NCBI GenBank assembly: GCA_016873255.1
Contig: VGXR01000015.1
Span: forward strand, 1-45,025
Origin: Planctomycetota bacterium
GTDB taxonomy: Bacteria > Planctomycetota > Phycisphaerae > Phycisphaerales > SM1A02
DNA: 45,025 nucleotides
Direction: 5' to 3'
A model generated the notes under the pieces. The model saw nothing but the letters and a program-made list of their open reading frames with translations. It ran no database searches and was not told where the DNA came from. The position numbers and the translations under genes are program-made. This document shows positions 971-36,625 of the stretch, piece after piece. The number at the start of each line of letters is the position of its first letter. The first letter of the stretch is position 1.

Positions 971-1012
971 CTCGCCGTGTCGCCCTCGGGCGGCGCGGCG
1001 AGGTTTTCATTT
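971..1012 (+). terminator. Intrinsic terminator after the repeat protein
   Basis: CTCGCCG at 971-977 pairs with CGGCGAG at 996-1002. An inner stem CGCC/GGCG closes a CTCG tetraloop. The stem is followed directly by the T-rich run gttttcattt. It lies about 50 bases after the stop codon, as expected for the end of this transcript. Confidence 0.8.
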
Positions 1013-1533: not shown

Positions 1534-1539
1534 TAGCCT
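1534..1539 (+). promoter_or_regulatory. -10 hexamer TAGCCT, 8 nt before gabD ATG
   Basis: TAGCCT fits TANNNT and ends 8 bases before the ATG at 1548, so transcription would start at or near the start codon (leaderless). No Shine-Dalgarno site is seen. Confidence 0.5.
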
Positions 1540-1547
1540 CCGCGCCC

Positions 1548-2987: not shown

Positions 2988-2999
2988 GCGCGCGGCGCC

Positions 3000-3434: not shown

Positions 3435-3469
3435 GGCTGGTCCTTGGTTGGATGGCGTTCCGGGCGCGG

Positions 3470-3475
3470 AGCGTA
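3470..3475 (-). promoter_or_regulatory. Possible mscL -10 hexamer (TACGCT on minus strand)
   Basis: TACGCT on the minus strand lies 35 bases before the mscL ATG. It would leave a short leader containing the AAGGA ribosome-binding site. Weak on its own. Confidence 0.3.
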
Positions 3476-3492
3476 TCGCGGCCGCCCTGCCC

Positions 3493-3498
3493 TAGCAT
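3493..3498 (+). promoter_or_regulatory. -10 hexamer TAGCAT, 6 nt before GTG start
   Basis: TAGCAT ends 6 bases before the GTG at 3505, the spacing expected for a leaderless transcript. Confidence 0.45.
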
Positions 3499-3504
3499 GG
3501 CTCC

Positions 3505-5118: not shown

Positions 5119-5157
5119 GCCCGCATCCGCGCCCGCGCAGCGAATGTCGTCGCCCCC

Positions 5158-5163
5158 TACCAT
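5158..5163 (+). promoter_or_regulatory. fumC -10 hexamer TACCAT with Shine-Dalgarno leader
   Basis: TACCAT ends 24 bases before the fumC ATG. Between them lies GAGGAGCGAAG, with AGGAG at 5175-5179, a good ribosome-binding site about 8 bases before the start. This is a led transcript, unlike most promoters here. Confidence 0.5.
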
Positions 5164-5187
5164 GTTCGCCCTCGAGGAGCGAAGAAC

Positions 5188-6666
5188 ATGGCCAAGCGAA
5201 CGCAGCGCGCCGCACGCGGCGCCACCACGGCAAAGACCCGCATCGAGTCGGACAGCATGGGCCAGATGACGGTGCCCGCGGACGTGCTCTACGGGGCCAC
5301 CACGCAGCGCGCGGTGCTCAACTTCCCGGTGAGCGGCCGCACGGTGCCGCCGCAGGTGATCGCCGCGTACTTCGAGCTGAAGCGCGCCTGCGCGCAGGCC
5401 AACCTCCGCCTGAAGGAGCTGCCGCGCGACAAGGCCGGCGCCATCGTCGCGGCCTGCGAGCGCCTCGTCGAGGACTTCGCCGACCGCCGCGCCGAGGTCA
5501 TGCGCCACTTCCCGATCGACGTCTACCAGACGGGCTCGGGCACCAGCACCAACATGAACGTGAACGAGGTGATCGCCAACACCGCGAGCGTGCTGCGCGG
5601 CAGGGCGATCGGCTCGAAGGACCCCCTGCACCCCAACGACCACGTCAACTGCGGGCAGAGCTCCAACGACACCTTTCCCACCGCCATGCAGGTGGCGGGC
5701 GCGGTGGCGATCGACCGGCACCTGCTGCCCGCGCTGCGGCGCCTGCACAAGTCGCTGGCCGCCAAGGCCCGCGCATGGGACCGCCACGTGAAGATCGGCC
5801 GCACGCACCTGATGGATGCCACGCCCATCCGCGTGGGACAGGAGTTCGGCGGCTACGCGGCCGCGGTCGAGTACGCGGTGGCCCGCGCGGAGCGCGCCCG
5901 CGACGTGCTCGCCGGCAACCTGCCGATCGGCGGCACCGCCGTGGGCACCGGCATCAACGCCAACCCGCGCTTCGGCCGGACGGTGTCGGCGATCCTCTCC
6001 AAGGAGCTGGGCATCGCCTTCCGCGAGGCGGGGAACCACTTCGAGGCCCAGGCCACGCGCGACTGCGTGGTGGAGGCGAGCGGGCTCCTCAAGACGATCG
6101 CGGTGAGCCTCTCCAAGGTGGCCAACGACATCCGCTGGATGGGGAGCGGCCCGCGCTGCGGGCTCGGCGAGCTGAACCTGCCCGCGACGCAGCCGGGCTC
6201 GAGCATCATGCCGGGCAAGGTGAACCCCGTGATCTGCGAGAGCGTGATCATGGTGGCGTGCCGCGTCGCGGGCAACGACGCCAGCATCACCATCGGCGGC
6301 TTCGGCGGCGTGGGCAGCCTGCTCGAGCTGAACGTGGCCATGCCGCTGATCGCCAACGACCTGTGCGAGTCGATCGAGCTGCTCGCGAACGCGTCGGACA
6401 TGTTCCGCGAGAAGTGCATCGATGGCCTCGAGCTGCGCCCCGATGCCACGCAGACCGTGGAGCGCAGCCTGATGATGGTGACGAGCCTCGCGCCGGTCAT
6501 CGGCTACGACAACGCCGCCAAGGCCGCCAAGGAGGCGTACAAGAGCGGCGAGACCATCCGCGCCTACGTGCTGCGCAACAGGCTGGTGGAGCCGAAGGCG
6601 CTCGACCGCCTGCTCGACCCGGCGGCGATGACCAGGCCGGGCGGCAAGGGCCCCGGCGGCGGGTGA
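5188..6666 (+). CDS. fumC: Class II fumarate hydratase
   Basis: It reversibly hydrates fumarate to malate in the TCA cycle; iron-free, homotetrameric and cytoplasmic. The protein has 492 residues, slightly longer than the usual 460-470 because of a basic N-terminal extension (MAKRTQRAARGATTAKT). Signature segments are all present: GSGTSTNMNVNEVIAN, the substrate-binding CGQSSNDTFPTAMQ, GRTHLMDATP and the mobile-loop signature GSSIMPGKVNP with the serine pair at 338-339. The ATG at 5188 is supported by AGGAG just upstream. Argininosuccinate lyase and aspartase share the fold, but the motif detail (LYGATTQRAVLNFPVSG) fits fumarase. Confidence 0.96.
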   Translation: MAKRTQRAARGATTAKTRIESDSMGQMTVPADVLYGATTQRAVLNFPVSGRTVPPQVIAAYFELKRACAQANLRLKELPRDKAGAIVAACERLVEDFADRRAEVMRHFPIDVYQTGSGTSTNMNVNEVIANTASVLRGRAIGSKDPLHPNDHVNCGQSSNDTFPTAMQVAGAVAIDRHLLPALRRLHKSLAAKARAWDRHVKIGRTHLMDATPIRVGQEFGGYAAAVEYAVARAERARDVLAGNLPIGGTAVGTGINANPRFGRTVSAILSKELGIAFREAGNHFEAQATRDCVVEASGLLKTIAVSLSKVANDIRWMGSGPRCGLGELNLPATQPGSSIMPGKVNPVICESVIMVACRVAGNDASITIGGFGGVGSLLELNVAMPLIANDLCESIELLANASDMFREKCIDGLELRPDATQTVERSLMMVTSLAPVIGYDNAAKAAKEAYKSGETIRAYVLRNRLVEPKALDRLLDPAAMTRPGGKGPGGG

Positions 6667-6687
6667 CGGCGCGGGGGGGGCGCAGGT

Positions 6688-6704
6688 CGGATTTCGGAAA
6701 TCCG
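6688..6704. promoter_or_regulatory. Perfect hairpin between fumC and the GH57-like gene
   Basis: CGGATTT and AAATCCG form a 7-bp stem with a 3-base loop 22 bases after the fumC stop. There is no T-run, so it is a poor intrinsic terminator. It may be a transcript-end structure or a protein-binding palindrome. Confidence 0.4.
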
Positions 6705-6755
6705 GCCCGGTACGCGCGCTCGATTTCCGCGGTCACGCCGCATACTGACGGGGTC

Positions 6756-9506: not shown

Positions 9507-9519
9507 TGAGCCCTTTCAT

Positions 9520-9537
9520 GGCTTCTCGGGAGAAGCC
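9520..9537 (+). terminator. Hairpin GGCTTCTC/GAGAAGCC after the GH57-like gene
   Basis: An 8-bp inverted repeat starts 13 bases after the stop codon and is followed by gcgttgtttgc, a weak T-rich run. It is a plausible but imperfect terminator. The same core, TTCTCGGGAGAA, occurs in reverse orientation at 42565-42576. Confidence 0.5.
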
Positions 9538-9678
9538 GCGTTGTTTGCAGGGAAACGGAGTGTCCAGAGGTTGATTCTCACGGGATCCGGGGCACCTTCC
9601 CAGTGCCTCGGACGCTTACACGGTCCGCTGGCCCGTCTTGTTTCCAGAGATGTGGGGAGTTTTCGGAAAGGGTTCGCG

Positions 9679-10434
9679 ATGCGCTTTCTTGCCGCGTCTG
9701 CAGTCATCTCCATCGTCGCATCCACCGCATCCGCGCGGTCGGACGAGCTGGTCCTCGCGCAGAACCTCCCGGTGACGCCGACCTTCGACCCCTCGAGCGG
9801 GCGCTTCGTGCAGGACGCCACGTTCTCCGACTCGATGCAGAGCCAGGGCAACTACTTCTACAGCCAGGCACTCGCGCAGCGCTTCGACGTGACCGCATCC
9901 AGCTGGACGCTGACCAGCCTCAGCGCCTGGGCCGCCAGCGAGTACATCGGGCAGAACCCGCCGTCGCAGACGGCGCTCAGCTCCAACATCTCCGCGCTCC
10001 AGGTGCAGATCCTGCGCCTCGAAGGCTCCACCGGCCAGTACCCGACGGTGGCGAACTGGTTGATCCCGATCGCCGCCATCCTGCAGGTGCAGCAGCAGAC
10101 CTTCACGCCGGGCATCTACAGCCCCGTCTTCCGACTGGACATGGAGCTGGCCAACAATTTCACCCTGTCCACCGGCAGCTACATCCTCACGATCGGCGGC
10201 GTGCTCGCCGACCCCGAGGGCAGCGCCTTCGCATGGGTCGACGGCCAGGCCGACGGCTCGCAGCCCAACACGCAGGCCTTCTTCACCAACGGTGACGTCT
10301 CCAGCGACTGGGGCTTCTGGGCCCCCGTGACGGACGGAACGTCGGGTGCCTTCGAATTGCGGGGCGTGCCGGCGCCCGGTGCGCTGGTTGCGCTGGCAGT
10401 GGCCGGCGTCGCCCGCCGCCGCCGACGCGACTGA
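9679..10434 (+). CDS. Secreted protein with PEP-CTERM-like tail, function unknown
   Basis: This 251-residue protein has a signal peptide (MRFLAASAVISIVASTASA), a beta-rich body without recognised catalytic motifs, and the C-terminal tail VPAPGALVALAVAGVA followed by RRRRR. The tail is the proline motif, membrane helix and arginine cluster of PEP-CTERM sorting signals. The ATG at 9679 has GGAAAGGG about 7 bases upstream and gives the signal peptide; the frame upstream to 9286 is a shadow of the GH57-like gene. The body (NYFYSQALAQRFDVTASSW, SGTYILTIGGV-like strands) looks like a small extracellular beta-sandwich. I do not recognise a specific family. Confidence 0.85.
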   Translation: MRFLAASAVISIVASTASARSDELVLAQNLPVTPTFDPSSGRFVQDATFSDSMQSQGNYFYSQALAQRFDVTASSWTLTSLSAWAASEYIGQNPPSQTALSSNISALQVQILRLEGSTGQYPTVANWLIPIAAILQVQQQTFTPGIYSPVFRLDMELANNFTLSTGSYILTIGGVLADPEGSAFAWVDGQADGSQPNTQAFFTNGDVSSDWGFWAPVTDGTSGAFELRGVPAPGALVALAVAGVARRRRRD

Positions 10435-10459
10435 TTTCACGAACGAGCGCGCGGCTCGC

Positions 10460-11395
10460 CTACCAGGGCGGCCATCCGCGCCACACGCACGCGCCGTCCA
10501 TGTCCGCCGACGGCGCGTGCGTGCTTTTGCGCGCTTCCGCGAGCGCGTTCGCTTCCGCGAGCGCGTTCGCATGGAGCCCCACCGCGTGCGCGCGCAGGAT
10601 TGCGGCGCCGCGGGCCGCGGCGGCCATTGCGGCGATGACGCTCGCGGGGTCGCGGCGCGCCGGGTCGGGCTCGCCCGCGAGCGCGCCGAGGAAGCTCTTG
10701 CGGCTCGCTCCCACCAGCACCGGCACGCCGAGGGATGCGAACTCCCCGAGCCTCCCGATCAGTTCCACGTTCTGCGCCACGTCCTTGCCGAACCCGATGC
10801 CGGGGTCGATGGCCACGCGGTCGCGAGGCATGCCGCGGCGGACGGCATCGTCGACGCGTGCGGCAAGCCAGTCACGCACCTCGGCGACGACATCCGCGGT
10901 GGCGCGCCGGGGATCGTGCTCGGTGCTCCAGCGGTCGTCGCCCGGCGCGAAGCGGCGATGCATGAGGACGAGCGCGGCACCCGCCTCCGCGGCCACGTCC
11001 ACGATGCCCGGCTCCTCGGTGCCGCCGCTGACGTCGTTCACCATGCATGCGCCGGCTTCCAGCGCCGCGCGGGCGACGGCCGCGCGCGTGGTGTCGATGG
11101 ACACGGCATGGCGCGCGGCCAGCGCACGCACCACGGGCTGCACGCGCGCCACCTGCTCGCGGTCGGGCACGCGGGCGGCGCCGGGCCGCGTGGACTCGCC
11201 GCCCACGTCGAGGATGACGGCTCCCTCGCGCGCGCAGCGTTCGCCGTGGTCGATGGCGGCCGCGGCATCGAGGTGCAGCCCGCCGTCGCTGAAGCTGTCC
11301 GGCGTCACGTTCACGATGCCCATCAGGTGCGGCACGACCCCTGCGCCCCACGCGAACGAGCGCTCGCGCGCGCGCAGGACGTTCGCCTGCGTCAT
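10460..11395 (-). CDS. folP: Dihydropteroate synthase
   Basis: It condenses para-aminobenzoate with 6-hydroxymethyl-dihydropterin pyrophosphate to give dihydropteroate in folate synthesis; a cytoplasmic TIM barrel and the target of sulfonamides. The protein has 311 residues. All signatures are visible: MGIVNVTPDSFSDGG, DVGGESTRPGA, SIDTT, NDVSGG, DPGIGFGKD and GASRKSFLG. The ATG at 11395 overlaps the stop of the upstream gene as ATGA, which fixes the start and suggests translational coupling. The C-terminus is about 30 residues longer than usual and contains a duplicated ANALAE. It is the last gene of a minus-strand run with the secreted protein and the glutathione peroxidase; no other folate gene is adjacent. 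Confidence 0.95.
   Translation of the reverse strand: MTQANVLRARERSFAWGAGVVPHLMGIVNVTPDSFSDGGLHLDAAAAIDHGERCAREGAVILDVGGESTRPGAARVPDREQVARVQPVVRALAARHAVSIDTTRAAVARAALEAGACMVNDVSGGTEEPGIVDVAAEAGAALVLMHRRFAPGDDRWSTEHDPRRATADVVAEVRDWLAARVDDAVRRGMPRDRVAIDPGIGFGKDVAQNVELIGRLGEFASLGVPVLVGASRKSFLGALAGEPDPARRDPASVIAAMAAAARGAAILRAHAVGLHANALAEANALAEARKSTHAPSADMDGACVWRGWPPW
10533..10568. repeat. 18-bp direct repeat in the folP 3' end
   Basis: gcttccgcgagcgcgttc occurs twice in tandem (10533-10550 and 10551-10568), encoding ANALAE twice in the C-terminal tail of FolP, outside the conserved barrel. Confidence 0.9.
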
Positions 11396-13146
11396 TGACG
11401 CGCCCGGGCCTTGGCGACATCGAAGGCCGCGCCGAGCACGCCGGCCGGCACCACCATCGCGCCCTCCCACGTGGCATCCTTGGACCGCACCGCGAAGGCG
11501 ACGGGCTCGAGACCCGCAGCCACCTCGGGCACCATCTCCGCCGCGCCGCCCGGGAGGGCGCTTGCCACCTGGCGAGCAGCCTCGAGCAGCTGTCCCACGC
11601 CCACGAACGCAACGAGGTCGGCATCGGGCACGAGCCACGGCGACATCGCGCGCACCACGCCGCCGGCACCCAGCGCGGGTGCGCCGCCGCTGGCCGCGGA
11701 CGCGGCCCGGCCGAGCACGTCGGTGCGCTGGCTGTAGGTGACCACCAGCGCGCCCGGCACCTCGCGGGCAAAGCCGTGCAGGCCCCGCGTCCCGAGCACC
11801 AGCTGCTTCATCAGGCGCTCGGTGGCGTCGGGCCCGGGCCCGGTCACCGTCTCCTTCACCGAGAACGCCGTGACCGTGCTTCCGTCCTTCAGCGTGCGCG
11901 CTTCTTCCCACATGGGCTCGCTCCGCAGGCCGCCGCGTTCCCATGCCTGCGACTCCACCCATGAACGCAGCCCGGCCTTGACCGCGGCAGGATCGTCGGT
12001 GACCACCACCATGGATGAATCGTTGAGGAACCCGCCGGTCATGATGGCGAGCTTGCTCGGGTACGCGGCGACCTGCACCTGCTTCACCTTGTCCTGCACG
12101 CGGTCAAGCCACTCCGGCAGCTGCAGGCGATCGCCCTGCGGCATGGTGGCCAGCACGGTGCGCAGGTGCTTCAGGCCGCCCATCGCCTCGAGGTCGATGC
12201 CGAGCGCGAGGAACGGGGCGCCTGCGGGGAGCTTCCCCAGGAGCGCCGTGGTCGCGCGGCCGGCGGCACCCGGCGCCGACGCGGGGATCGCCTTGGCGAA
12301 CTCGCTGCCCGGCGCGAAGCGGGCCCATCCGCGGACCATCACCGCGAGCGCATCGAAGTCGACGGCCACGATGCCGTCCGTGACCTGCTCGAGCACCGCC
12401 GCGGATCGCTCGCGGCCCTTGGCCGCGGCCTCGAGCGCCGCGGCGGCGCCGGCCTCGGGCGCGTCGCCGCGGGGAAGCATGCCTGCGACGCCCTCGTCGA
12501 GCACGGCCGCGGTGCGCGCCTTGGCTGCGGCCACGCGCATCACGGCGTCCGATGCCCAGGAGAAGAGATCGCTTCCACGCACGATCTCCATGCCGCGGCT
12601 GCCGATCCGCTCCTCGAGGCGCTTGGCGAATGCATCGCCCTCAGTCCACGCGCCGAGCACGTCGGCATCGGCCACCAGCACGTGCGACCCCGCCTTGCGC
12701 ACCCACACGGGGGTGCCGAGCATGCGCGAGCGCATCGCGCCGTCCGTGGCCTCCGGCGCGGCGTCGAACATCGCGGCGATGAACGCGTCGGCGTCGATGA
12801 CCGCGAAGGCCGCGGCATTGGCGAAGCCGCCCGCGCGCGGCTGGCTCCATGCGACGAACGACCCGCGGTCGTCGAAGCCCGCGCCGACCCCCGCCTGCGC
12901 CTTCAGGAGGTCGATGGGGCGGCCGCCGAGCGCGGCCTCGGCCCGGCCCATGCGGTCGAGCGAAAGCTGCAGGTCGTCGCTGGCGGCCTTCAGGCTGGGA
13001 GCCACCACGACGCCGGCGGCATCGGCGGGCACCTTGCGGAGCGCATCCTCCAGCCCGCCCGCGCGGGCCGCGGCGGACGGCAGCAGCGCGCCGGCCAGCG
13101 TGCAGGCGGCCAGGAGCGCACGCGAACGCCTTGAGATCATGGTCAT
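11392..13146 (-). CDS. Secreted protein of unknown function (DUF3352-like look)
   Basis: This 584-residue protein has a signal peptide: MTMISRRSRALLAACTLAG, cleaved near AAARAGG. The mature protein starts LEDALRKVPADAAGVVVAPS, a pattern seen in exported planctomycete proteins related to DUF3352, where a conserved P-AD opening precedes repeated alpha/beta segments. No catalytic motif is recognised. The ATG at 13146 is preferred to 13173 because it starts the signal peptide and leaves a 4-base gap after the peroxidase stop at 13151. Its stop overlaps the folP start (ATGA). Being between a peroxidase and folP suggests co-transcription, not a shared pathway. Confidence 0.8.
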   Translation of the reverse strand: MTMISRRSRALLAACTLAGALLPSAAARAGGLEDALRKVPADAAGVVVAPSLKAASDDLQLSLDRMGRAEAALGGRPIDLLKAQAGVGAGFDDRGSFVAWSQPRAGGFANAAAFAVIDADAFIAAMFDAAPEATDGAMRSRMLGTPVWVRKAGSHVLVADADVLGAWTEGDAFAKRLEERIGSRGMEIVRGSDLFSWASDAVMRVAAAKARTAAVLDEGVAGMLPRGDAPEAGAAAALEAAAKGRERSAAVLEQVTDGIVAVDFDALAVMVRGWARFAPGSEFAKAIPASAPGAAGRATTALLGKLPAGAPFLALGIDLEAMGGLKHLRTVLATMPQGDRLQLPEWLDRVQDKVKQVQVAAYPSKLAIMTGGFLNDSSMVVVTDDPAAVKAGLRSWVESQAWERGGLRSEPMWEEARTLKDGSTVTAFSVKETVTGPGPDATERLMKQLVLGTRGLHGFAREVPGALVVTYSQRTDVLGRAASAASGGAPALGAGGVVRAMSPWLVPDADLVAFVGVGQLLEAARQVASALPGGAAEMVPEVAAGLEPVAFAVRSKDATWEGAMVVPAGVLGAAFDVAKARARQ

Positions 13147-21516: not shown

Positions 21517-24500
21517 TCGACTTCTTCATCCGGCGGCCCATCTTCGCGACCGTCATCGCCCTGCTGATGGTGATCGCGGGCGGGCTGTCGATGACCATCC
21601 TGCCGGTGGCGCAGTTCCCGCCGATCACGCCCCCCACGGTGCAGGTGTCCGCCTTCTACCCGGGCGCATCGTCGTCGACCACCTCGGACGTGGTGACGCG
21701 CCTCCTCGAGCGGCAGATCAACGGCGTGCCCGGCATGATCTACATGTCGAGCAACTCGGTGAACGGCGGCAATGCCGTCATCACCGTCACCTTCGACGTG
21801 GGGTACGACCTGTCGATCGGCACGGTCGACGTGCAGAACTACGCGCAGACGGCCATCCCGCAGCTGCCGCCCGAGGTGCAGCAGCAGGGCATCTCGGTGC
21901 GCAAGCAGTCCACCGACTTCGTGCAGGTGGTGGGGCTCTTCAGCCCCAACAAGACCTACGGCGGCGACTTCCTCTCCAACTACGCCGACATCGCCATCGT
22001 GCAGACGCTGCAGCGCATCCCGGGCGTGGCGCAGGTGTCCAACTTCGGCCTGCGCCAGTACTCGATGCGGGTGTGGCTGGACACGCCGAAGCTGGCGGCG
22101 CTGGGGATCGACGCGCGCGAGGTCTACCGCGCCATCTCCGAGCAGAACCGCCAGGCGGTCGGCGGGCAGGCGGGCGCGGCGCCGTACGCGGGCGGCACGG
22201 CACCGGCCTTCACCATGCAGGTGAACGCGCTGGGCCGCCTGCAGCAGGTGCAGGACTTCGAGGAGATCGTGGTCCGCAGCGACGACCGCGGCACCGTGCA
22301 GGTGCGCGACGTGGCGCGCGTGGAGCTGGGCGCCGCCAACTACGCCAGCACCGGCAAGCAGGACGGCGAGACCGGCGCGCTGCTCGGCATCTTCCAGCTG
22401 CCGGGCTCGAACGCGTTCGAGATCGCCAAGGCCGTGAACGCGGCGATGGAGTCGCTCAAGGAGGACTTCCCCGCCGACGTCGACTACCGGATCAACTACG
22501 ACACCACGCGCTTCGTGCGCGCGAGCATCGCCGAGGTCGTCGAGACCTTCTGGGAGGCGGCGGTGCTGGTGCTCGTCATCATCTTCGTCTTCCTGCAGAG
22601 CTTCCGGACGACCATCATCCCGATGATCGCCATCCCGGTGTCGATCATCGGCACGTTCGCGGTGATGCTCGGCCTCGGGTTCTCGATCAACACGCTGACG
22701 CTGCTCGGCCTGGTGCTGGCGATCGGCATCGTCGTCGACGACGCCATCGTGGTGGTGGAGAACGTCGAGCGCAAGTTCGAGCACGGCGAGACCGACCCGT
22801 ACCGCGCCGCGAGCGCCGCCATGAAGGAGGTGGCGGGGCCGATCGTCGCCACCACGCTGGTGCTGGCCGCGGTGTTCGTGCCCGCCGCGCTGATGCCCGG
22901 GGTGACCGGGCAGCTCTACAACCAGTTCGCCATGACGATCGCCATCTCGGTGATCTTCTCCGGGCTCAACTCGCTGACCCTCAGCCCCGCGCTCGCGGCA
23001 CTCTTCCTGCGCCCCCGGAAGATGGCGCAGACCGGGCCCTTCGGCGCCTTCAACCGCGCCTTCGGCCGCACCGAGCGCGCCTACGAGTCGCTGGTCGGCT
23101 GGCTGATCCGCCGCTGGATGGTGGCCGGCGCGATCTTCACCGCGGCCATCGCCGCGGCGCTGTGGCTCGTCGGCACGTCGCCCACGGCGTTCGTGCCCGA
23201 CGAGGACAACGGCTACTTCTTCGTGGCCTACCAGCTGCCGCCCGGCACGCCGCTCGAGCGCACCAACGCGTTCGCCGCGCAGGCACGCGAGATCGTGGCG
23301 GCACAGCCCGAGATCGAGACGATCATCGAGATCAACGGCACGAACTTCATCGCCAACGCGCCGCAGTCGAACGCCGGCGTGCTCATCCCGGTGCTCAAGC
23401 CGTGGGACGAGCGCACGGGCCGCGGCCAGGACACGGGCAGCCTGGTGCGCCGGCTGCAGCCCCTGCTGTGGACGCTGCCCGGCGGCATGGCGTTCCCGTT
23501 CAACCCGCCCGCGATCCCGGGCCTCGGGTCGGTGGGCGGCTTCCAGCTGCAGCTCGTCGACCGCGCGGGCCTGGGCACCGACCGCCTCTACCAGGCGGCC
23601 CAGGCGCTGATCGCCGAGGGCGCCAAGCACCCCGACAAGGTGGCCGGCGTGGCCACGTTCTTCCAGAAGGACGTGCCGCAGGTGTGGCTCGACATCGACC
23701 GCGCCAAGCTGCAGCGGCTCGGCATCACCGTGGCGGATGCGTTCGGCGCGCTGCAGCTCAACTTCGGCAGCGCCTACGTGAACCAGTTCAACCGGTTCAA
23801 CCAGGTCTACCAGGTGTACGTCCAGGCCGACTCGCCGAACCGCATGACGCCCGAGGACCTCGACCGCATCTACGTGGCGGGCAAGGACCGGCGCATGGTG
23901 CCGTTCTCGGCGTTCGCCACTGCGCGCACGACGACGGGCCCCGACAACCTCACGCACTACAACGTGACCAACACCATCGCCATCAACGGCGCGGGCGCGC
24001 CGGGCGTCAGCTCGGGCGAGGCCACGGCGTTCATGGAGCGGCTCTGCGAGGAGGTGCTGCCGCAGGGCATCAGCTACGAATGGACCGGCATCACCTACCA
24101 GGAGCGCAAGTCGTCGAACGCGGCACCGGTGGTGTTCACGCTGGCGATCATCGCGGTGTTCCTGTTCCTGGCGGCGCAGTACGAGAGCTGGCTGCTGCCG
24201 GTGCTGGTGGTCGGCGCGGTGCCGTTCGCCGCGCTCGGCGCGGTGGCGGGCCTGCGGCTCGCGGGCAAGCCGCTTGACGTCTACGCGCAGATCGGGCTGG
24301 TGATGCTGATCGGCCTGGCCGCGAAGAACGCGATCCTGATCGTCGAGTTCGCCAAGGAGGCCTCGGAGCGCGGGCGCTCGCCCGTGGAGGCGGCCATGGA
24401 CGCGGCACGGCTGCGCCTGCGGCCCATCCTGATGACCGCGTTCAGCTTCATCCTGGGCGTGGTGCCGCTGGTGCTCGCAAGCGGCGCCGGCGCCAACGCG

Positions 24501-24671
24501 CGCAAGTCGATCGGCGTGACGGTGCTCGCGGGGCTCGCGGCATCGACGGTGCTCTCGCTCGTGATCGTGCCCGTCTTCTACGCGCTGCTCGTGATCGTGC
24601 GCGACCGGGTGTGGGGCGACGCTGCCCCGGGCGAGGCGGACGAGGCCGAGGCCGCGCCGCCCGCGCATTGA
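21513..24671 (+). CDS. RND multidrug efflux pump, HAE1/AcrB family
   Basis: This is a 1052-residue proton-driven inner-membrane pump, full length for AcrB/MexB. The start MIDFFIRRPIFATVIALLMVIAGG is the classic first membrane helix. Proton-relay residues are present: D409 and D410 in GIVVDDAIVVVENVERK, and K938 in GLAAKNAILIVEFAKEA. Twelve membrane helices surround two large periplasmic loops (for example LPPGTPLERTNAF, NGTNFIAN). The protein class (hydrophobic and amphiphilic efflux) is clear from these features; the actual substrates cannot be read. It ends the three-gene operon begun at 18842. No TetR-type repressor gene is adjacent, so how the operon is controlled is not visible. Confidence 0.95.
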   Translation: MIDFFIRRPIFATVIALLMVIAGGLSMTILPVAQFPPITPPTVQVSAFYPGASSSTTSDVVTRLLERQINGVPGMIYMSSNSVNGGNAVITVTFDVGYDLSIGTVDVQNYAQTAIPQLPPEVQQQGISVRKQSTDFVQVVGLFSPNKTYGGDFLSNYADIAIVQTLQRIPGVAQVSNFGLRQYSMRVWLDTPKLAALGIDAREVYRAISEQNRQAVGGQAGAAPYAGGTAPAFTMQVNALGRLQQVQDFEEIVVRSDDRGTVQVRDVARVELGAANYASTGKQDGETGALLGIFQLPGSNAFEIAKAVNAAMESLKEDFPADVDYRINYDTTRFVRASIAEVVETFWEAAVLVLVIIFVFLQSFRTTIIPMIAIPVSIIGTFAVMLGLGFSINTLTLLGLVLAIGIVVDDAIVVVENVERKFEHGETDPYRAASAAMKEVAGPIVATTLVLAAVFVPAALMPGVTGQLYNQFAMTIAISVIFSGLNSLTLSPALAALFLRPRKMAQTGPFGAFNRAFGRTERAYESLVGWLIRRWMVAGAIFTAAIAAALWLVGTSPTAFVPDEDNGYFFVAYQLPPGTPLERTNAFAAQAREIVAAQPEIETIIEINGTNFIANAPQSNAGVLIPVLKPWDERTGRGQDTGSLVRRLQPLLWTLPGGMAFPFNPPAIPGLGSVGGFQLQLVDRAGLGTDRLYQAAQALIAEGAKHPDKVAGVATFFQKDVPQVWLDIDRAKLQRLGITVADAFGALQLNFGSAYVNQFNRFNQVYQVYVQADSPNRMTPEDLDRIYVAGKDRRMVPFSAFATARTTTGPDNLTHYNVTNTIAINGAGAPGVSSGEATAFMERLCEEVLPQGISYEWTGITYQERKSSNAAPVVFTLAIIAVFLFLAAQYESWLLPVLVVGAVPFAALGAVAGLRLAGKPLDVYAQIGLVMLIGLAAKNAILIVEFAKEASERGRSPVEAAMDAARLRLRPILMTAFSFILGVVPLVLASGAGANARKSIGVTVLAGLAASTVLSLVIVPVFYALLVIVRDRVWGDAAPGEADEAEAAPPAH

Positions 24672-24677
24672 CCCCGG

Positions 24678-24683
24678 TACCCT
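24678..24683 (+). promoter_or_regulatory. -10 hexamer TACCCT for pepP
   Basis: TACCCT ends 6 bases before the pepP ATG, in the 18-base gap after the pump gene. Confidence 0.45.
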
Positions 24684-24689
24684 CCGGGG

Positions 24690-25910
24690 ATGACGAATGC
24701 CGCGCCCGCGATCGGCCACCCCGAGTTCAAGGCCCGCCGTGAACGACTGCTCGCCGACCTCGGCTGCGCGGTGGGCGTGGTGCTTGCCGGCGAGGCCGAC
24801 CCGTCGCTCCACCACCCATGGAAGCCGCATGCGCACTTCGAGTACCTGACCGGCGTGACCGACGAGCCGGGGGCGATGCTGCTCCTCGACCCAGCCAACC
24901 CGGTGCCGGCCAAGCGCGCGGTGCTCCTCCTGAAGCCGCTGAACCCCGAGGCGGAGAAGTGGGACGGCTTCCGGCACGAGATCGGCTCGGCGCTGAAGGC
25001 ACGCACGGGCTTCGACACCGTCATGCGCACGGGCATGCTCGGCCGGCTCCTCCTCGAGGCGACGCGCCGCTCGCGGACCCTCGCCTGCCTCATGCCGCTC
25101 TCGCCGTGGAACGCGCCGGTCTCCGGAGACCTTGCGATCCTCCGCGCGCAGGCCGAGCGCGTGCCGGGCGCGGCGGTGCAGGACCGCTCCGACCTGCTGC
25201 CGCGGATGCGCGCGTCCAAGAGCGCGGCGGAGATCGCCTGCATCCGCGAAGCCGGCCGCATCACCGCCACGGGCTTCGAGGCCGCCATGCGCCACATGCG
25301 CGCGGGGATGAACGAGTTCGACCTTCAGGAATGCGTGGAGCATGCCTACCGCACCAACGGCGCGCGCGAGCTCGCGTTCCGCACGATCGCGGGCGGCGGG
25401 TTCAACGCCACGGTGCTGCATTACCACGCCAACGACCAGCCACTGAAGGACGGCGAGCTGGTGGTGCTCGACAGCGGCGCCAAGCACGCGGGCTACTCCG
25501 CGGACGTGACGCGCACGCTGCCGGTGTCCGGGCGCTTCACGCCGCGACAGCGCGAGCTCTACGACCTGGTGCTGCGCGCGCAGGCCGCGGCGATCGCCGC
25601 CATCCGCCCGGGGGTCACGCTGGCCCAGGTGGATGCCGCCGGCCGCAAGGTGATCAACGACGCCGGGCTCGGCGACGCGTTCATCCACGGCATGGGCCAC
25701 CACCTCGGGCTCGAGACGCACGATGCCTCGCCGGACGCCCCGCTCGAGGTCGGTGCCGTGATCACCGTGGAACCGGGCGTGTACCTGCCCGGCGAGTCCG
25801 TGGGCATCCGCATCGAGGACGACGTGGCCGTCACCGAGGACGGGCACGAGGTGCTGACGCCCGCCATCCCGCGCACCGCCGACGAGGTCGAGCGCGCCAT
25901 GGCGCGCTGA
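24690..25910 (+). CDS. pepP: Xaa-Pro aminopeptidase (M24B)
   Basis: This 406-residue enzyme removes the N-terminal residue before proline using two metal ions; cytoplasmic. An N-terminal creatinase-like domain (FEYLTGVTDEPGAMLLL) precedes the pita-bread catalytic domain. Metal ligands are D261 and D272 (VLDSGAKHAGYSADVTRT), H337 (GMGHHLGLETHD), E361 (ITVEPGVYLP) and E376 (IRIEDDVAVTEDG). The length is near the usual 430-440. It lies 18 bases after the RND operon but has its own -10 hexamer, and 4 bases before the ECF sigma gene, so it may drive that gene too. Confidence 0.95.
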   Translation: MTNAAPAIGHPEFKARRERLLADLGCAVGVVLAGEADPSLHHPWKPHAHFEYLTGVTDEPGAMLLLDPANPVPAKRAVLLLKPLNPEAEKWDGFRHEIGSALKARTGFDTVMRTGMLGRLLLEATRRSRTLACLMPLSPWNAPVSGDLAILRAQAERVPGAAVQDRSDLLPRMRASKSAAEIACIREAGRITATGFEAAMRHMRAGMNEFDLQECVEHAYRTNGARELAFRTIAGGGFNATVLHYHANDQPLKDGELVVLDSGAKHAGYSADVTRTLPVSGRFTPRQRELYDLVLRAQAAAIAAIRPGVTLAQVDAAGRKVINDAGLGDAFIHGMGHHLGLETHDASPDAPLEVGAVITVEPGVYLPGESVGIRIEDDVAVTEDGHEVLTPAIPRTADEVERAMAR

Positions 25911-25914
25911 GGCC

Positions 25915-26463
25915 ATGGCCCGCAGCGCCGAGGACATCATCGACCGGTGCCTGCGCGGCGAGGCACGCGCGTGGGACGATTTCGTCGACCGCTACCAGCG
26001 ACTGGTGTGGAGCGTGGCGCGCTCGTACCGCCTGCCCGCGGAGGACTGCGACGACGTCACGCAGGCGGTGCTCGTCGCCGCGCTGCGGCACCTCGCGGAC
26101 CTGCGCGACCCGGCGAAGGCGGCATCGTGGCTCATCACCAGCGCGCACCGCGAGAGCTGGCGCGTGGCGCGCAACCGCCGGCGGACGGTGGACCTCGTCG
26201 GCGACTTCGCGAGCGTCAGCGAGCCGGACGACCGCCGCGCGACGGACCTCGAGGCGATGCACTCGATGCGCGCGGCGCTCGACGAACTCGGAGACCCCTG
26301 CCGGGCGCTCCTCGTGGCGCTGTTCTCCGAGGTCGACCCCCACTACCCGGACCTCGCCAAGCGCCTGGGGATGCCCGTCGGGTCGATCGGCCCCACCCGG
26401 GGCCGTTGCATCGAGAAGCTCCGCGCCAGGATGGGGGCGCACTTGGAAGCGAAGTCCGAATAA
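25915..26463 (+). CDS. ECF-type RNA polymerase sigma factor
   Basis: This is a 182-residue sigma-70 family member. Region 2 (about 18-88) has WDDFVDRYQRLVWSVARSY, the DCDDVTQAVLVAAL helix and WLITSAHRESWRVARNRRR. Region 4 (about 118-172) has LDELGDPCRALLVALFSEVDPHYPDLAKRLGMPVGSIGPTRGRC, a helix-turn-helix that would contact the -35 element. The recognition helix GSIGPTRGR-IEKLRARM resembles group members next to TPR/CHAT genes in actinobacteria and planctomycetes (family knowledge, from memory). The start lies 4 bases after the pepP stop. No membrane anti-sigma factor follows; instead a small soluble protein and a TPR protein do. Confidence 0.92.
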   Translation: MARSAEDIIDRCLRGEARAWDDFVDRYQRLVWSVARSYRLPAEDCDDVTQAVLVAALRHLADLRDPAKAASWLITSAHRESWRVARNRRRTVDLVGDFASVSEPDDRRATDLEAMHSMRAALDELGDPCRALLVALFSEVDPHYPDLAKRLGMPVGSIGPTRGRCIEKLRARMGAHLEAKSE

Positions 26464-26538
26464 CAACTCGTCGTCAGAGATCCCGAAGCCCCGTATCTGC
26501 AACCCGCCCGGCACCCTCAACCCATTGAAGCGCCCCAC

Positions 26539-27063
26539 ATGACCGACCACGACTTCGAGACCCTCCTTGCACGCGCGCTGCGCGACGAGACGCAGCGCGG
26601 CGCCTCCCCCGAGGCGATCGTGCGCATCCGCGCCGCAGGCCACGAGCACCTCGCGCGCATCGCCGCGGGCCGGACGCCGGCGGCATGGTTCGGGCGCCTC
26701 GTCGATGCCGCCGCCGAGGCCGTGCGCGGCAGCCTCGTGCACGAGCAGCTCGCCGGCGCCGCAGTCGGCCTGCGGTCGACCGCGTCCGTGCGGCAGCGGG
26801 TGTACGGCTCCGCGGGCGGGGCGATGGAGCTGGATCTTGAGAGCACCGAGGAAGGCGACGGCACCTGCCGCGTCCGCGGGCTGTGCAGCGGTCCCGCCGG
26901 CCATGCGCGCGTACTGGTGCTTGAGGAGGGCGCAGCCGAGCCGCGCGAGCTCACCTGCACGGCCGACGGCCGCTTCGAGTTCACCACGGCATCCGGCCGC
27001 GTCGACCTGGCGACGTCGATGGGCAGCAGTGTCCTCGTCGTCGACGGGGTCGACCTGCCGTGA
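26539..27063 (+). CDS. Small beta-rich protein between an ECF sigma factor and a TPR protein
   Basis: This 174-residue soluble protein has an alpha-helical N-terminus (about 1-70; DFETLLARALRD, EHLARIAAG, WFGRLVDAAAEAVRGSL) followed by a beta-sandwich-like half: RVYGSAGGAMELDLES, CRVRGLCSGPAGHARVLVLE and CTADGRFEFTTASGRVDL. The strand pattern (GxxRVxG, a variable loop, then DGRFEF) resembles carboxypeptidase-regulatory/Ig-like modules found in proteins encoded between ECF sigma and TPR-CHAT genes. It has no signal peptide or zinc-finger motif. A role as a cytoplasmic regulator or sensor for the sigma factor is inference. The stop overlaps the next gene's GTG start (GTGA), so the two are translationally coupled. 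Confidence 0.8.
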   Translation: MTDHDFETLLARALRDETQRGASPEAIVRIRAAGHEHLARIAAGRTPAAWFGRLVDAAAEAVRGSLVHEQLAGAAVGLRSTASVRQRVYGSAGGAMELDLESTEEGDGTCRVRGLCSGPAGHARVLVLEEGAAEPRELTCTADGRFEFTTASGRVDLATSMGSSVLVVDGVDLP

Positions 27064-28406
27064 CCGGCACGGCTCCCGGCAACCCGAACGGTCCCGAGCG
27101 GACGCTCGAGCGCCTGGCGGCGATGTCGCAGGACGAGCGGTCGGCCTGGGCACGCAGCCTCGGCGCGGGGCTGGCGGCGGCGTGCGACGAGGCGGTGTCG
27201 GCCGCAGAGCGCCGGCTCGCGCGCGAACCGGCGTTCGTGCTCGATGCCGCCGAGGCGATTGCCGCAGCGGCGGCGGCGGCCGGCGCCGCGGTGCAGTCGG
27301 CGCGAGCAATGCGCATCGCCAGCCATGCGCTTGCATACCTCGGCCGGCTTGACGAGGCGATCGCGGTTGCCGGGCGCAGCCGCGAGGCGGCGCTCGCCGC
27401 GGGAGCCCCCGTGGACGCGGCGCGCGCGGACGTGGCCTCGATGCACCCGCTTGCGAAGAGCGGCCGGCCGCTCGAGGCCGTGGAGCGCGGGCTGCGCGCG
27501 CGCGACGCGATGCACGCGGCCGGCGCCGACGCCATGGCCGCACGGGCGGAGCTCAACCTTGCCAACGTGCTTCGCCTCCTCGGGCGCCACGCCGAGGCGC
27601 TGGCATCGCTCGACGCTGCGCTCGCGTCGCTCGGCGCCGACGCCACGGTCGCCGGGCAGGTGCAGAACTCGCGCGGCGAGGTCCTGCTGGCGCTCGGGCG
27701 GATCGGCGACTCCGAGGCGGCGTTCGCAGACGCTCGCCGGCATCCCGGTCGACCCGCGGTTCGACATGGCGGCGCTCGGCCCGGCCAGCGCGGGGCTGCG
27801 CGGCGGTGCACGGCCGCGGGTCCTGCTCACGGGCGGCGGGTTCGGGATCGGCGACATCGAGGCCACGGCCGCCGCGCTCCTGCGCACGCTGCGCTCGGCG
27901 GACGTCACCGTGGTGTGCGGCCGCAACGAGGCGCTCGAGGCAGGCATGCGGGCCCTGGCGGCATCGTGGCCCGCAGGCGACGGGCGAGGAAACTCGCTCG
28001 AGGTGCTTGGCTACACCAAGGAGATGCACCGCATCATGGCGGGCGCCGACGTCCTCGTGGGCAAGCCGGGCGGCCTCACCACCACCGAGGCCAAGGCGCT
28101 CGGGCTGCCGATGGTGCTGCTCAGGCCGATCCCCGGGCAGGAGGAACGGAACGCGCAGGTGCTGGTGGAGTCGGGCGCGGCGGTGCGCACGCGCGGCCCC
28201 ATCGATGCCGCGGAGGCGGTCGCGCGGCTCCTTGCCGAGCCGTCGGCACTGCGCGCGATGGCGGGCGCGGCGGCCGCGAACAGCCGACCGCTCGCGGCCT
28301 TCGACGTCGCGCGGCGCGTAATGGCCGAGGCAGCGCGCCGGGGCAGCCCGCGACTGCCGCGGCTGGTCGGCATGAGCGCGGCCTGAGCCCGATGAGCGCG
28401 GCCTGA
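27060..28406 (+). CDS. TPR protein, chimeric: only about residues 1-223 are TPR-like
   Basis: The GTG at 27060 overlaps the previous stop (GTGA). Residues 1-223 form consecutive TPR helical pairs: ARAMRIASHALAYLGRLDEA, SGRPLEAVERGLRARDAM, LNLANVLRLLGRHAEALASL and NSRGEVLLALGRIGDSEAAF. This is the usual N-terminal scaffold of TPR-CHAT proteins encoded after an ECF sigma factor. From about base 27730 this frame stops looking like protein (arginine/glycine-rich nonsense), while the +1 frame begins a glycosyltransferase. The open frame therefore continues to 28406 only as a shadow. The expected further TPRs and CHAT protease-like domain are absent. Either a deletion fused two genes out of frame or the assembly is chimeric. 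Confidence 0.6.
   Translation: MTGTAPGNPNGPERTLERLAAMSQDERSAWARSLGAGLAAACDEAVSAAERRLAREPAFVLDAAEAIAAAAAAAGAAVQSARAMRIASHALAYLGRLDEAIAVAGRSREAALAAGAPVDAARADVASMHPLAKSGRPLEAVERGLRARDAMHAAGADAMAARAELNLANVLRLLGRHAEALASLDAALASLGADATVAGQVQNSRGEVLLALGRIGDSEAAFADARRHPGRPAVRHGGARPGQRGAARRCTAAGPAHGRRVRDRRHRGHGRRAPAHAALGGRHRGVRPQRGARGRHAGPGGIVARRRRARKLARGAWLHQGDAPHHGGRRRPRGQAGRPHHHRGQGARAADGAAQADPRAGGTERAGAGGVGRGGAHARPHRCRGGGRAAPCRAVGTARDGGRGGREQPTARGLRRRAARNGRGSAPGQPATAAAGRHERGLSPMSAA
27730..28386 (+). pseudogene. C-terminal half of a UgtP/MGDG-synthase-like glycosyltransferase (GT28)
   Basis: In the +1 frame relative to the TPR gene, about 218 residues match the nucleotide-sugar-binding half of processive diacylglycerol glucosyltransferases. 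GIPVDPRF is followed by RVLLTGGGFGIGDIEAT, VTVVCGRNEAL, LEVLGYTKEMHRIMAGADVLV, GKPGGLTTTEAKALGLPMVL and IPGQEERNAQ. In UgtP-type enzymes this half binds UDP-sugar and makes membrane glycolipids. The acceptor-binding N-terminal half, about 170 residues, is missing, and no start codon or ribosome-binding site precedes GIPVDPRF. It ends MSAA then stop inside a 20-bp repeat. It is probably inactive unless a frameshift makes a TPR-glycosyltransferase fusion. Confidence 0.75.
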
Positions 28407-28471
28407 GCCCGATGAGCGCGGCCTGAGCCCGATGAGCGCGGCCTGAGCCGCACGAGCGCGGCCTGAGCGGC
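28372..28471. repeat. 20-bp tandem repeat carrying ATG...TGA, nearly five copies
   Basis: The unit atgagcgcggcctgagcccg starts at 28372, 28392, 28412 and 28432; a diverged fifth copy is at 28452. Each unit contains ATG-AGC-GCG-GCC-TGA, that is MSAA and a stop. Because 20 is not a multiple of three, successive copies place this stop in all three frames. It separates the glycosyltransferase remnant from thiC (convergent). Confidence 0.95.
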
Positions 28472-33137: not shown

Positions 33138-34184
33138 TCAGCCCCAGGCCGCGAGCATCAGCCCGAGGTCGAACCCGTTCACGGTGCCATCGCGGTTCAG
33201 GTCTGCGCCGCTGGGCTGGCCGTTGGTTCCCCATGCAGCAAGCAGCAGGCCGAGGTCGAACCCGTTCACGGTGCGGTCGCCGTTCAGGTCGCCGAACACC
33301 GGCTGCAGCGTGCCGAGCGCGACGATCGAGCTGCTGCCGGTGGTGGCCGACGTGCCGTCGGAGAATGTGCCGCTCATCAGCAGGTTGGCGGTGGCGCCGG
33401 GCGGCAGGATGGTCGGCAGCGCGAACGGCATGTTCACGAGCGGCGCCGGCGCGGGGACCGGCACGGTCTCGTTGACGGTGCCCTGCGAGGTCAGCGTGGC
33501 CTGGTCGCCGCTGAAGGTCGCGGTGCCGGTCATCACCACGCTGCCCGGGGAGGTGATGGTGAACGGAGCGCCGAGCGCGGTGCCCTCCACCGTCACGTTC
33601 ACGGGGACGGTCACGGCGAACGACCAGGACCCGTCGGCGTTGGCGGTCGCGGCGCCGATGGCGGGGCCCGACTGGACGGCATTGGCCATGGTGAGCGCAC
33701 CGCTGTCGAGCGGGGCGTCGAAGTTCGACACGCCGATGAACGTGGAGCTCGGCGCGAACGTGCGGAATAGGGAGTAGGTCAGCGTTATCCGCGTCTCGAT
33801 GGTGCCGCCCTGCGCACCGAGCGCGTTGAGCGCAAGCCCAGTGACCTCCACTGCCCCGGTCGCGCGGTCGAGCCCGAAGACGTAGGAGCCGGTCGGGTTG
33901 GTGTTGGCGATGACGGCACGCGGGCGCACGACCGAGGTGAACGGGATCGCCACGTTGCCCGACCCGCCGAACAGCCCCGGGCGCGTCTGCGTGCCGGTCG
34001 GGTTCGTCACGGCGTCGTAGTTGCCGATCCACGTGCCGACGAGCGGCAGCTGGATCTGCGTGGTCTGGCTGTAGGTGCTGGTCGGCGCGATGGTGCACGC
34101 CCAGCGGTCCGTGGCCCCGAATGCGGGGGCCACGGCACACAGCGCGGCAGCGGCGAGGAAGTGTCCGATTCGGGCGTGCGCCAT
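33138..34184 (-). CDS. Secreted protein with dockerin-like C-terminus, function unknown
   Basis: This is a 348-residue protein. A signal peptide (MAHARIGHFLAAAALCAVAPAFGA) precedes a threonine/glycine-rich beta body (GTWIGNYDAV, GLDRATGAVEVTGLALN, WSFAVTVPVNVTVEGTALG) and a proline-rich linker (VPVPAPAPL). The last 51 residues are two calcium-loop units, DLNGDRTVNGFDLG and DLNRDGTVNGFDLG, each ending LLLAAWG-like. They resemble type I dockerins; in planctomycetes the same tag is very common on exported proteins and need not mean cellulosomes. The ATG at 34184 gives the signal peptide and has TACTTT six bases upstream. No enzyme family is recognised. Confidence 0.85.
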   Translation of the reverse strand: MAHARIGHFLAAAALCAVAPAFGATDRWACTIAPTSTYSQTTQIQLPLVGTWIGNYDAVTNPTGTQTRPGLFGGSGNVAIPFTSVVRPRAVIANTNPTGSYVFGLDRATGAVEVTGLALNALGAQGGTIETRITLTYSLFRTFAPSSTFIGVSNFDAPLDSGALTMANAVQSGPAIGAATANADGSWSFAVTVPVNVTVEGTALGAPFTITSPGSVVMTGTATFSGDQATLTSQGTVNETVPVPAPAPLVNMPFALPTILPPGATANLLMSGTFSDGTSATTGSSSIVALGTLQPVFGDLNGDRTVNGFDLGLLLAAWGTNGQPSGADLNRDGTVNGFDLGLMLAAWG

Positions 34185-34279: not shown

Positions 34280-36625
34280 TCAGGACGGGGTCCAGGCCCC
34301 GAGCAGCAGCCCCAGGTCGAACCCGTCCACCGTGCCGTCGCCGTTCAGGTCGGCCGGGCCAGGCTGGCCCCACCCGCCGAGCAGCAGCCCCAGGTCGAAC
34401 CCGTTGACCGCCCCGTCGCCGTTCAGGTCGCCGGGCACGCCGCACCCGCTGCAGGACAGCGCCAGCCAGTAGCGGAGGCCGTCGAAGCCGGGAACGGGCG
34501 GCGGGTCATCGGGCGGGGGCGGGTTGTCGGGGTCGATGTCGGTGCACGGCTGACCGCCGCGCACCGGGCCCACGTCCTGGCCCAGCGTCAGCACCGCGTA
34601 CCACGGTCCGCCGTCGATGCACGCATCGAGCACGATCGGCGCGCAGCGCCCGCCGAACGCGGTGCGCTCCACGGAGAGCGGGCCGGCCATGTCGCCGCGC
34701 ACGAGGTGCAGTTCCGCGGGGAACTCCGCGTCCACCGTGAGCTGCACGCGCCTCGGGCCGCCGCTTCCCAGCGCATACCAGTCCCCGTCGCGCGGGGCGC
34801 CGGTGGTGCACGTGCCGGTGAAGACCTGCCCGCACGCGATCGGCTGCGACTCGCCATTGCGCGTGGCGCCGTCGTTGGTGCGCCGGTAGCACGGCTCGGC
34901 CTCGTCGATGGCGCCTGCGGGAACGGTCACGGTGCACGGCGGGAGGCCGCAGAGGGCGGCGACGCGTGCCACGCACACCCAGTCCCACGTGGCGCCGTCG
35001 CAGTAGCCGTCGAGCGGGGTGACGCGCTCGCAGCACGCCGGATCCTCGCAGCCCGGATCATCGTGCACGGTGTCGCACGCCCCGTAGGAGGGGCAGACCA
35101 GGCCATTGCACTCCGTGTCCGCGAGGTCCGCGCACATCTGGTCCCACGCCGTGGCGCAGCACTCCGGGTTGATCTTGCAGACGGCCTCGCAGCACGGGGT
35201 CGTGAAGCAGCCGGGCGTCGGATGCGGCTCGTCGCAGCGGCCGCCGGCGCCCTGCGGGCCGCATGCCGCGGGCGGGCCGAACGCGCTGCCGGCGTGGGCG
35301 CCGTCGCGCGGCTCGGGGCCGGCGCCCGCCAGCATCAGCGCCACCTCGCACGAGGGCGACGGCCCGTGCGAGAAGCTCGCGCGGGGCGGCGGACCGGCGG
35401 GTGGGCCGTCGCCTGCCCCTGCGAACGAGAAGCACGCACGGAGGTTGCGGTAGCCGAGCGCCCAGTGCCCGGCGATGTCCGCGATCACGATGTCGGTGTC
35501 GCAGTCGGCGTCGAGGTTCGCGCACAGGAATGCGCGCCCGAATGCGGCGTAGTCGAGCTGCCCCGCGGGCATGAACGCCACGGTGCCGCCCGTGCTCACG
35601 TTGCGCCACAGGAACACGTTTCCCGGGAGCGCGGTGCTCGTCACCGCGTCCAGCCTGCCGTCGCCGTCGAAGTCGCCCAGCTCGCCGGCCCAGTGGTACC
35701 CGGCGCCGTTGGGCGCGGATGCCACGAGCACGCGCTCGGCGAAGCCGCCGGCGCCGTCGTTGCGGAACACCACCAGCGGCTGCGCGCCGGTCGAGTTGAG
35801 GAGCGGCGCGAGGATGTCGACGTCGCCGTCGTTGTCGACGTCACCGAGGTCGAACGACACCACGGCCGGTCGCGTCACCCCGGGGAAGTCGGGCGCCATC
35901 CATGCACGCGGAGGCGCGAACGTGCCGCCGGGCCGGCCCATGAACACGTCGAACCTGCGCGTGCCGATGCAGCCCACCACCAGGTCGGTGCGACCGTCGC
36001 CGTCGAGGTCGGCGGCGAGCGTGTCCTGCGGCCCGGGCAAGCCGCCGCTCCAGGCATCCACGCGCAGCCGCTGGCGCACGGCGAAGCTGCCGAGCCCGTC
36101 GTTGGCGAGGATCGCCACGTGCTCGCTGCCGTAGAAGGTCACTGCGAGGTCCGGGTCGCCGTCGCCGTCGAAGTCGCCGCCCGCCATCGAGCGCGGCTCG
36201 CGGTCGAAGCGCACGGGCGCATCCGGGACCATGGCCCCGCCCGCGCCGCGCCGCAGCACCTGCAGCCGCCCGCGGTACGAGCGGATGGCAAGCACCAGCT
36301 CCTGCGCGCCGTCGCCGTCGATGTCCATGGCGATGGCGTCGTCGGTCTGGCCGTCGACCTGCAGCGTCCGGATGGCACCGAAGCTGCCGTCCGCGAGGAT
36401 CGGCGCCCAGTTGAGGAGGCCATCGGCATCGCGACCGGTGAGGAGCAGGTCCTGGCGCCCGTCGCCGTCCATGTCGAAGAGCCGCACCCGCGTCGGCGCA
36501 TGGCCGGGCGTGCAGTCCACGTACACGGGCTCCGCCTCGAACGCGAGCTGTGCGTGCACCGCATGCGGTGCCGCGCAGAGGGCGGCGAGGGCGGCGAGGC
36601 GGAGGTGGCGCTGGAGTCGGTTCAT
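34280..36625 (-). CDS. Secreted FG-GAP/VCBS propeller protein with Cys-rich and dockerin-like domains
   Basis: This is a 781-residue protein. After a signal peptide (ending PHAVHA), residues about 40-400 hold repeated calcium-binding loops such as DMDGDGRQDLLL, DIDGDGAQELVL, DFDGDGDPDLAV, DLDGDGRTDLVV and DVDNDGDVDIL, the FG-GAP/VCBS pattern of an integrin-like beta-propeller. Residues about 430-560 are cysteine-rich, with PGCFTTPCCEAVC and CCATAWDQMCADLA, a repeat typical of Phycisphaerales exported proteins. Residues about 735-781 are two dockerin-like loops. Adhesion or matrix binding is the usual guess for such proteins. The ATG lies 12 bases after the stop of the protease gene, so it probably belongs to that operon. 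Confidence 0.9.
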   Translation of the reverse strand: MNRLQRHLRLAALAALCAAPHAVHAQLAFEAEPVYVDCTPGHAPTRVRLFDMDGDGRQDLLLTGRDADGLLNWAPILADGSFGAIRTLQVDGQTDDAIAMDIDGDGAQELVLAIRSYRGRLQVLRRGAGGAMVPDAPVRFDREPRSMAGGDFDGDGDPDLAVTFYGSEHVAILANDGLGSFAVRQRLRVDAWSGGLPGPQDTLAADLDGDGRTDLVVGCIGTRRFDVFMGRPGGTFAPPRAWMAPDFPGVTRPAVVSFDLGDVDNDGDVDILAPLLNSTGAQPLVVFRNDGAGGFAERVLVASAPNGAGYHWAGELGDFDGDGRLDAVTSTALPGNVFLWRNVSTGGTVAFMPAGQLDYAAFGRAFLCANLDADCDTDIVIADIAGHWALGYRNLRACFSFAGAGDGPPAGPPPRASFSHGPSPSCEVALMLAGAGPEPRDGAHAGSAFGPPAACGPQGAGGRCDEPHPTPGCFTTPCCEAVCKINPECCATAWDQMCADLADTECNGLVCPSYGACDTVHDDPGCEDPACCERVTPLDGYCDGATWDWVCVARVAALCGLPPCTVTVPAGAIDEAEPCYRRTNDGATRNGESQPIACGQVFTGTCTTGAPRDGDWYALGSGGPRRVQLTVDAEFPAELHLVRGDMAGPLSVERTAFGGRCAPIVLDACIDGGPWYAVLTLGQDVGPVRGGQPCTDIDPDNPPPPDDPPPVPGFDGLRYWLALSCSGCGVPGDLNGDGAVNGFDLGLLLGGWGQPGPADLNGDGTVDGFDLGLLLGAWTPS

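Follow-up and report, generated by a model that had tools for sequence, protein, structure and literature searches.

A putative protease-controlled ECF sigma factor cassette of planctomycetes and an apparently truncated copy of it

A four-gene cassette, predicted from sequence to encode an ECF sigma factor, a soluble anti-sigma-like protein, a TPR-CHAT protease and an exported S8 subtilase, is widespread in one family of planctomycetes. The copy from which this analysis started lies in the window, that is, the whole 45,025-nucleotide stretch of Planctomycetota bacterium DNA that was analysed, and seems to be the 5' remnant of such a cassette after a deletion of about 6.4 kb. On balance we favor a reading of the complete cassette as a switch, in which the CHAT protease relieves the anti-sigma-like protein and thereby frees the sigma factor. 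The window offers a natural example of a cassette that has apparently lost its protease half, and the interest of the system rests in the intact family. The relevant features of the window are the following.

24690..25910, + strand: M24 peptidase (Xaa-Pro aminopeptidase type), PF00557 at 1.9e-65; upstream edge of the likely cassette insertion, outside the cassette
25915..26463, + strand: ECF-type sigma factor, 182 aa, intact; TIGR02937 at 4.3e-17, PF04542 (Sigma70_r2) at 2.2e-11
26539..27063, + strand: middle protein, 174 aa, predicted soluble anti-sigma-like protein with a C-terminal transthyretin-like/Ig-like beta-sandwich (family profile matches, structure model)
27060..27735, + strand: TPR-CHAT protein, N-terminal ~223 residues only; ~700 residues including the CHAT protease absent
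27725..27738, no strand: deletion junction; ~6.44 kb of the sibling genome G005 (positions 5894-12331 of the reversed locus L004) missing in the window
27736..28386, + strand: GT28-type glycosyltransferase, C-terminal half only; PF04101 at 2.4e-7, PRK13609 positions 205-370 at 2.4e-29; outside the cassette

The sigma factor gene starts 4 bp after the stop codon of the M24 peptidase gene. Its product matches the sigma70-ECF profile TIGR02937 over residues 19-172 in a profile search, which places it in the ECF class, and yields no separate sigma4 match in Pfam. The TPR gene begins with GTG at 27060 and overlaps the TGA stop of the middle gene at 27061-27063 (GTGA), so that the three successive genes lie as the initial annotation, made from the window sequence alone, had described them; the TPR region matches TPR_12 at 1.6e-8.

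Recurrence of the four-gene cassette

The surroundings of the middle-protein loci were searched as six-frame translations with local profiles, and neighbors were counted only at loci whose contig extends far enough. The middle-protein profile has matches in 47 of the 181 family genomes, distributed over 24 of 45 genera; the middle gene is preceded by a sigma factor gene in 50 of 52 testable loci and followed by a TPR-CHAT gene in 51 of 52. The order of sigma factor, small protein and TPR-CHAT protein proposed in the initial annotation is thus a recurring neighborhood, and its recurrence across 24 genera is beyond chance. The three proposed parts are sound; a fourth conserved gene, which encodes a secreted S8 subtilase and follows the TPR-CHAT gene in 43 of 46 testable loci, had been missed. 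The expectation that the TPR homologues carry an effector is also borne out: all 46 sufficiently long proteins contain a TPR region followed by a CHAT domain that keeps the catalytic His and Cys, the conserved pair of CHAT-domain proteases (PF12770). The subtilases keep Asp, His and Ser in 44 of 44 cases and begin with a signal-like N-terminus in 42 of 43.

A second scan, seeded on TPR-CHAT proteins in named genomes, retrieved 42 loci with the same gene order; it shares several or many assemblies with the family survey and serves as a check, not as an independent sample. Nearly all of these loci come from planctomycete MAGs, most of which bear the label Phycisphaerales or Phycisphaerae; two carry the label Chloroflexia. 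The middle protein is less common beyond the family: of 392 genomes drawn from the phylum, 24 have it, and five of these belong to the family itself. Upstream of 48 distinct sigma factor genes, no two-block word rises above shuffled sequences as a shared ECF promoter motif.

Several loci depart from the common pattern. In the two MAG contigs labelled Chloroflexia (L163 and L178), the anti-sigma-like protein of the cassette has a zinc motif; these contigs may reflect transfer or a binning error, and in L163 two subtilases stand in tandem. In L114 (G071:C68:1-3255) the middle-protein gene overlaps by 4 nt with the next gene, of which only the start is present and which encodes a signal-peptide-bearing protein similar to the cassette subtilase; there is no sigma factor upstream and no TPR-CHAT gene in between. 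L113 (G057:C316) holds a middle-protein homologue that has no sigma factor, TPR-CHAT or subtilase gene in its vicinity.

The middle protein as a candidate anti-sigma factor

Taken alone, the 174-residue protein of the window has no match in Pfam, and single-sequence searches with it return no anti-sigma family. At the level of the family the picture is different from the "no assigned function" of the initial annotation, although the beta-sandwich described there stands: the family combines anti-sigma-like and transthyretin-like parts. Among 46 members, 12 match the NCBIfam model "anti-sigma factor" (NF052375; best 1.8e-7), six the ChrR model, five zf-HC2 and 12 the carboxypeptidase regulatory-like domain CarboxypepD_reg (best 2.6e-8). 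Compared with solved structures, the family profile finds the sigma-binding part of RseA (1or7_C, 7.9e-5), 2q1z (0.047) and the transthyretin-like domain of NOMO2 (4.6e-8). In the protein model of a typical member (L144), four N-terminal helices precede the beta-sandwich, and no membrane segment is evident. The N-terminal helices being homologous to the anti-sigma domain (ASD) of RseA and ChrR, the family is best described, on profiles and models, as a soluble class I anti-sigma-like protein joined to a transthyretin-like beta-sandwich. The initial annotation was right that the window locus has no membrane anti-sigma factor; the anti-sigma-like role is assigned here to the soluble middle protein.

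With the class I anti-sigma factors RseA, ChrR and RsiW the middle protein shares the N-terminal helical domain and a gene beside that of an ECF sigma factor. The zinc motif Hx3Cx2C of this class is kept in the Chloroflexia members (ARHLATCDDC in L163, LRHVATCAHC in L178). Unlike RseA, ChrR and RsiW, the middle protein is a soluble protein that carries a transthyretin-like beta-sandwich, lacks the zinc motif in most members and has an intracellular caspase-like protease encoded with it. Known ways of releasing class I anti-sigma factors are membrane proteolysis, redox change and partner switching.

The window protein and its homologue in G005 (49% identical) are short by ~37 residues in helices 1-3 relative to typical members, and the model of the window protein reaches a pLDDT of about 90 or more in the beta-sandwich and 53-59 in the helical part. 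A fold search placed only the beta-sandwich, in general Ig-like folds with Z of about 8 that filled the result lists, so that the helices were left unplaced. Such truncation of the helical domain, seen in a minority of members, would fit a protein that is not an inhibitor at all and acts as an adaptor or sensor, passing a signal to the TPR-CHAT protein, which would itself act on the sigma factor or on other targets; the best conserved positions (R79, G114, G144, F146), which lie in a linker motif and the beta-sandwich, would fit it too. We consider this reading unlikely, given the four-helix anti-sigma domain of typical members with its matches to RseA, ChrR and NCBIfam anti-sigma models, the zinc motif of the Chloroflexia proteins and the almost constant adjacency of the middle gene to the sigma factor gene. 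Moreover, in the alignment both short proteins retain the stretch equivalent to helix 4, which bears most of the sigma2 contacts in class I anti-sigma factors (PMC7406223).

A proposed switch and its relation to Craspase

In intact copies, the middle protein would most likely hold the sigma factor inactive by binding it. The TPR part or the beta-sandwich may then sense a signal that activates the CHAT protease; this would cleave or dislodge the middle protein, so that the sigma factor, once free, would transcribe its targets, probably the cassette itself and the exported subtilase. Presumed to be exported, the subtilase could also stand outside the switch.

The closest known arrangement is the output module of Craspase. 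In the DiCASP system, the TPR-CHAT protease Csx29 cleaves Csx30, an inhibitor of an ECF-like sigma factor (PMC10028731). The CHAT part of the cassette family matches Csx29-type structures at ~3e-10, and both the cassette and the type III-E module (Csx29, Csx30 and CASP-sigma) encode a TPR-CHAT protease, an ECF-like sigma factor and a third protein together. The third protein has been shown to inhibit the sigma factor in Craspase, whereas in the cassette the same role is only proposed; the middle protein measures ~200 aa and carries an RseA/ChrR-like domain, while Csx30 has 565 aa, and the cassette adds the secreted S8 subtilase as a fourth gene. None of the 42 named loci is flanked by a gene of gRAMP/Cas7-11 size, as judged by gene size, and they are therefore not counted as type III-E; in the other loci surveyed, the cassette likewise consists of the four genes. 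The lack of such a neighbor, together with a candidate inhibitor of the classical anti-sigma type, leads us to propose a CRISPR-free sigma switch released by a protease.

The intact family thus looks like a CRISPR-free counterpart of Craspase signalling that has not been described before. In the searchable literature, the CRISPR type III-E module is the only described case of an intracellular caspase-like protease that releases an anti-sigma factor; searches joining the CHAT domain, sigma-70 and anti-sigma factors found nothing, and those on TPR-CHAT proteins with a sigma factor found only work on CRISPR type III. Carried further, and more tentatively, the comparison would mean that in this family of planctomycetes a CRISPR-independent caspase-like protease destroys a soluble anti-sigma factor and so fires an ECF sigma factor that drives an exported subtilase, the Craspase module being the CRISPR-coupled counterpart. 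If this is true, the strictly conserved unit of sigma factor, anti-sigma factor, TPR-CHAT protease and subtilase, which is present in 24 of 45 sampled genera and includes no CRISPR part, represents an independent, general form of the Craspase switch.

CHAT and subtilase proteases are also known from defence systems, and PADLOC reports matches to BovA (4.9e-6) and to a subtilase (4.2e-17), as would suit a conflict or cell-death module in which infection activates the TPR-CHAT protein to degrade cell proteins, with the sigma factor and the subtilase as accessories. This seems rather improbable to us: the matches are partial and generic, the cassette comes without CRISPR or other defence genes, including any flanking gene of Cas7-11 size, and the subtilase begins with a signal-like N-terminus.

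The truncated copy in the window

A genome of the same genus, G005, has a syntenic intact locus in the order M24 peptidase, sigma factor, 174-aa homologue, 931-aa TPR-CHAT protein, S8 subtilase with a dockerin-type C-terminus, dockerin-type protein, LpxH-like phosphatase, full glycosyltransferase and thiC. The sigma factors of the two genomes are 69% identical (dN/dS ~0.41). The G005 TPR-CHAT orthologue matches CHAT (PF12770) at 8.8e-30 and has the conserved His and Cys, whereas the window copy lacks the domain: its TPR stump is 61% identical to residues 9-231 of the G005 protein and covers HMM positions 7-219 of 947 in a model of intact relatives, and homology stops at ~27735, where the gene is truncated. 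The TPR frame stays open until 28406, but past ~27736 coding moves to the frame of the glycosyltransferase, a GT28/diglucosyl-diacylglycerol-synthase-like protein equivalent to the latter half of the complete enzyme in the sibling.

In blastn, window positions 21834-27725 align with G005 3-5893 and window positions 27737-28191 with G005 12332-12783. What G005 has and the window lacks is thus the CHAT half, the secreted S8 subtilase, the dockerin-type protein, the LpxH-like phosphatase and the N-terminal half of the glycosyltransferase. The loss of the CHAT part had been recognized in the initial annotation; the missing segment extends well beyond it, to further genes and half of another. In the window genome, a 97.5%-complete assembly, there is no CHAT domain elsewhere, no LpxH-like gene, which is present in 13 of 13 other genomes of the genus, and only the C-terminal half of the glycosyltransferase; five other S8 proteases are encoded elsewhere. 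In six other siblings the M24, LpxH-like, GT28 glycosyltransferase and thiC genes are contiguous without the cassette, which is therefore most simply an insertion common to G005 and the window lineage.

Because ThiC and the glycosyltransferase at first looked nearer to G013/G008, a chimeric contig was considered. A gene-by-gene comparison placed genes on both sides of the junction nearest to G005, and the chimera was rejected in favor of a single lineage. Of the two fates suggested in the initial annotation, an inactivated or an exchanged system, the first is retained, as breakage by a single deletion, and the second is dropped. The frames of both stumps are open, with dN/dS values of 0.41 and 0.50 (purifying selection), and the glycosyltransferase stump evolves no faster than in G005. 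An old deletion with relaxed selection on the stumps was considered and set aside, no such relaxation being seen; as the remaining parts show no decay, the event fits a recent deletion or a strain or assembly variant.

The same open, constrained stumps leave an appreciable chance, though the smaller one, that the deletion is absent from the organism or confined to a minority strain, the metagenome assembly having joined the TPR and glycosyltransferase genes of a cassette that is really intact. It would also be unusual to lose both the LpxH-like phosphatase and the full glycosyltransferase, which essentially all siblings have. The breakpoints, however, offer no long repeat to mislead an assembler (up to 200 nt from the G005 breakpoints, no shared word exceeds 10 nt), both flanks belong to one lineage, and no other contig holds the CHAT, phosphatase or glycosyltransferase sequence that is missing here. 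We conclude that the loss is probably a single internal deletion of ~6.4 kb that is real in the organism.

On this deletion reading the cassette copy of the window is probably dead. With the protease half, the subtilase and the neighboring genes deleted, its switch could not be released by its own protease, and the sigma factor would be locked off; alternatively, the shortened middle protein may no longer bind, leaving the sigma factor unregulated. It is very improbable that the TPR stump acts on its own as a scaffold and continues to regulate the sigma factor: the frame does remain intact and conserved as far as the junction, but none of the 46 other full-span copies lacks CHAT, and the product would end in ~220 out-of-frame residues.

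Two further features of the window were noted. Positions 28372-28468, where the glycosyltransferase stump has its 3' end, hold ~4.8 tandem copies of the 20-nt unit ATGAGCGCGGCCTGAGCCCG, each of which repeats the last codons and the stop of the stump. Positions 33138-34184 and 34280-36625, as well as many related loci, encode secreted proteins that end in dockerin-type DLNxDGxVxGxDL repeats; the C-terminus of the cassette subtilase is of this type too.
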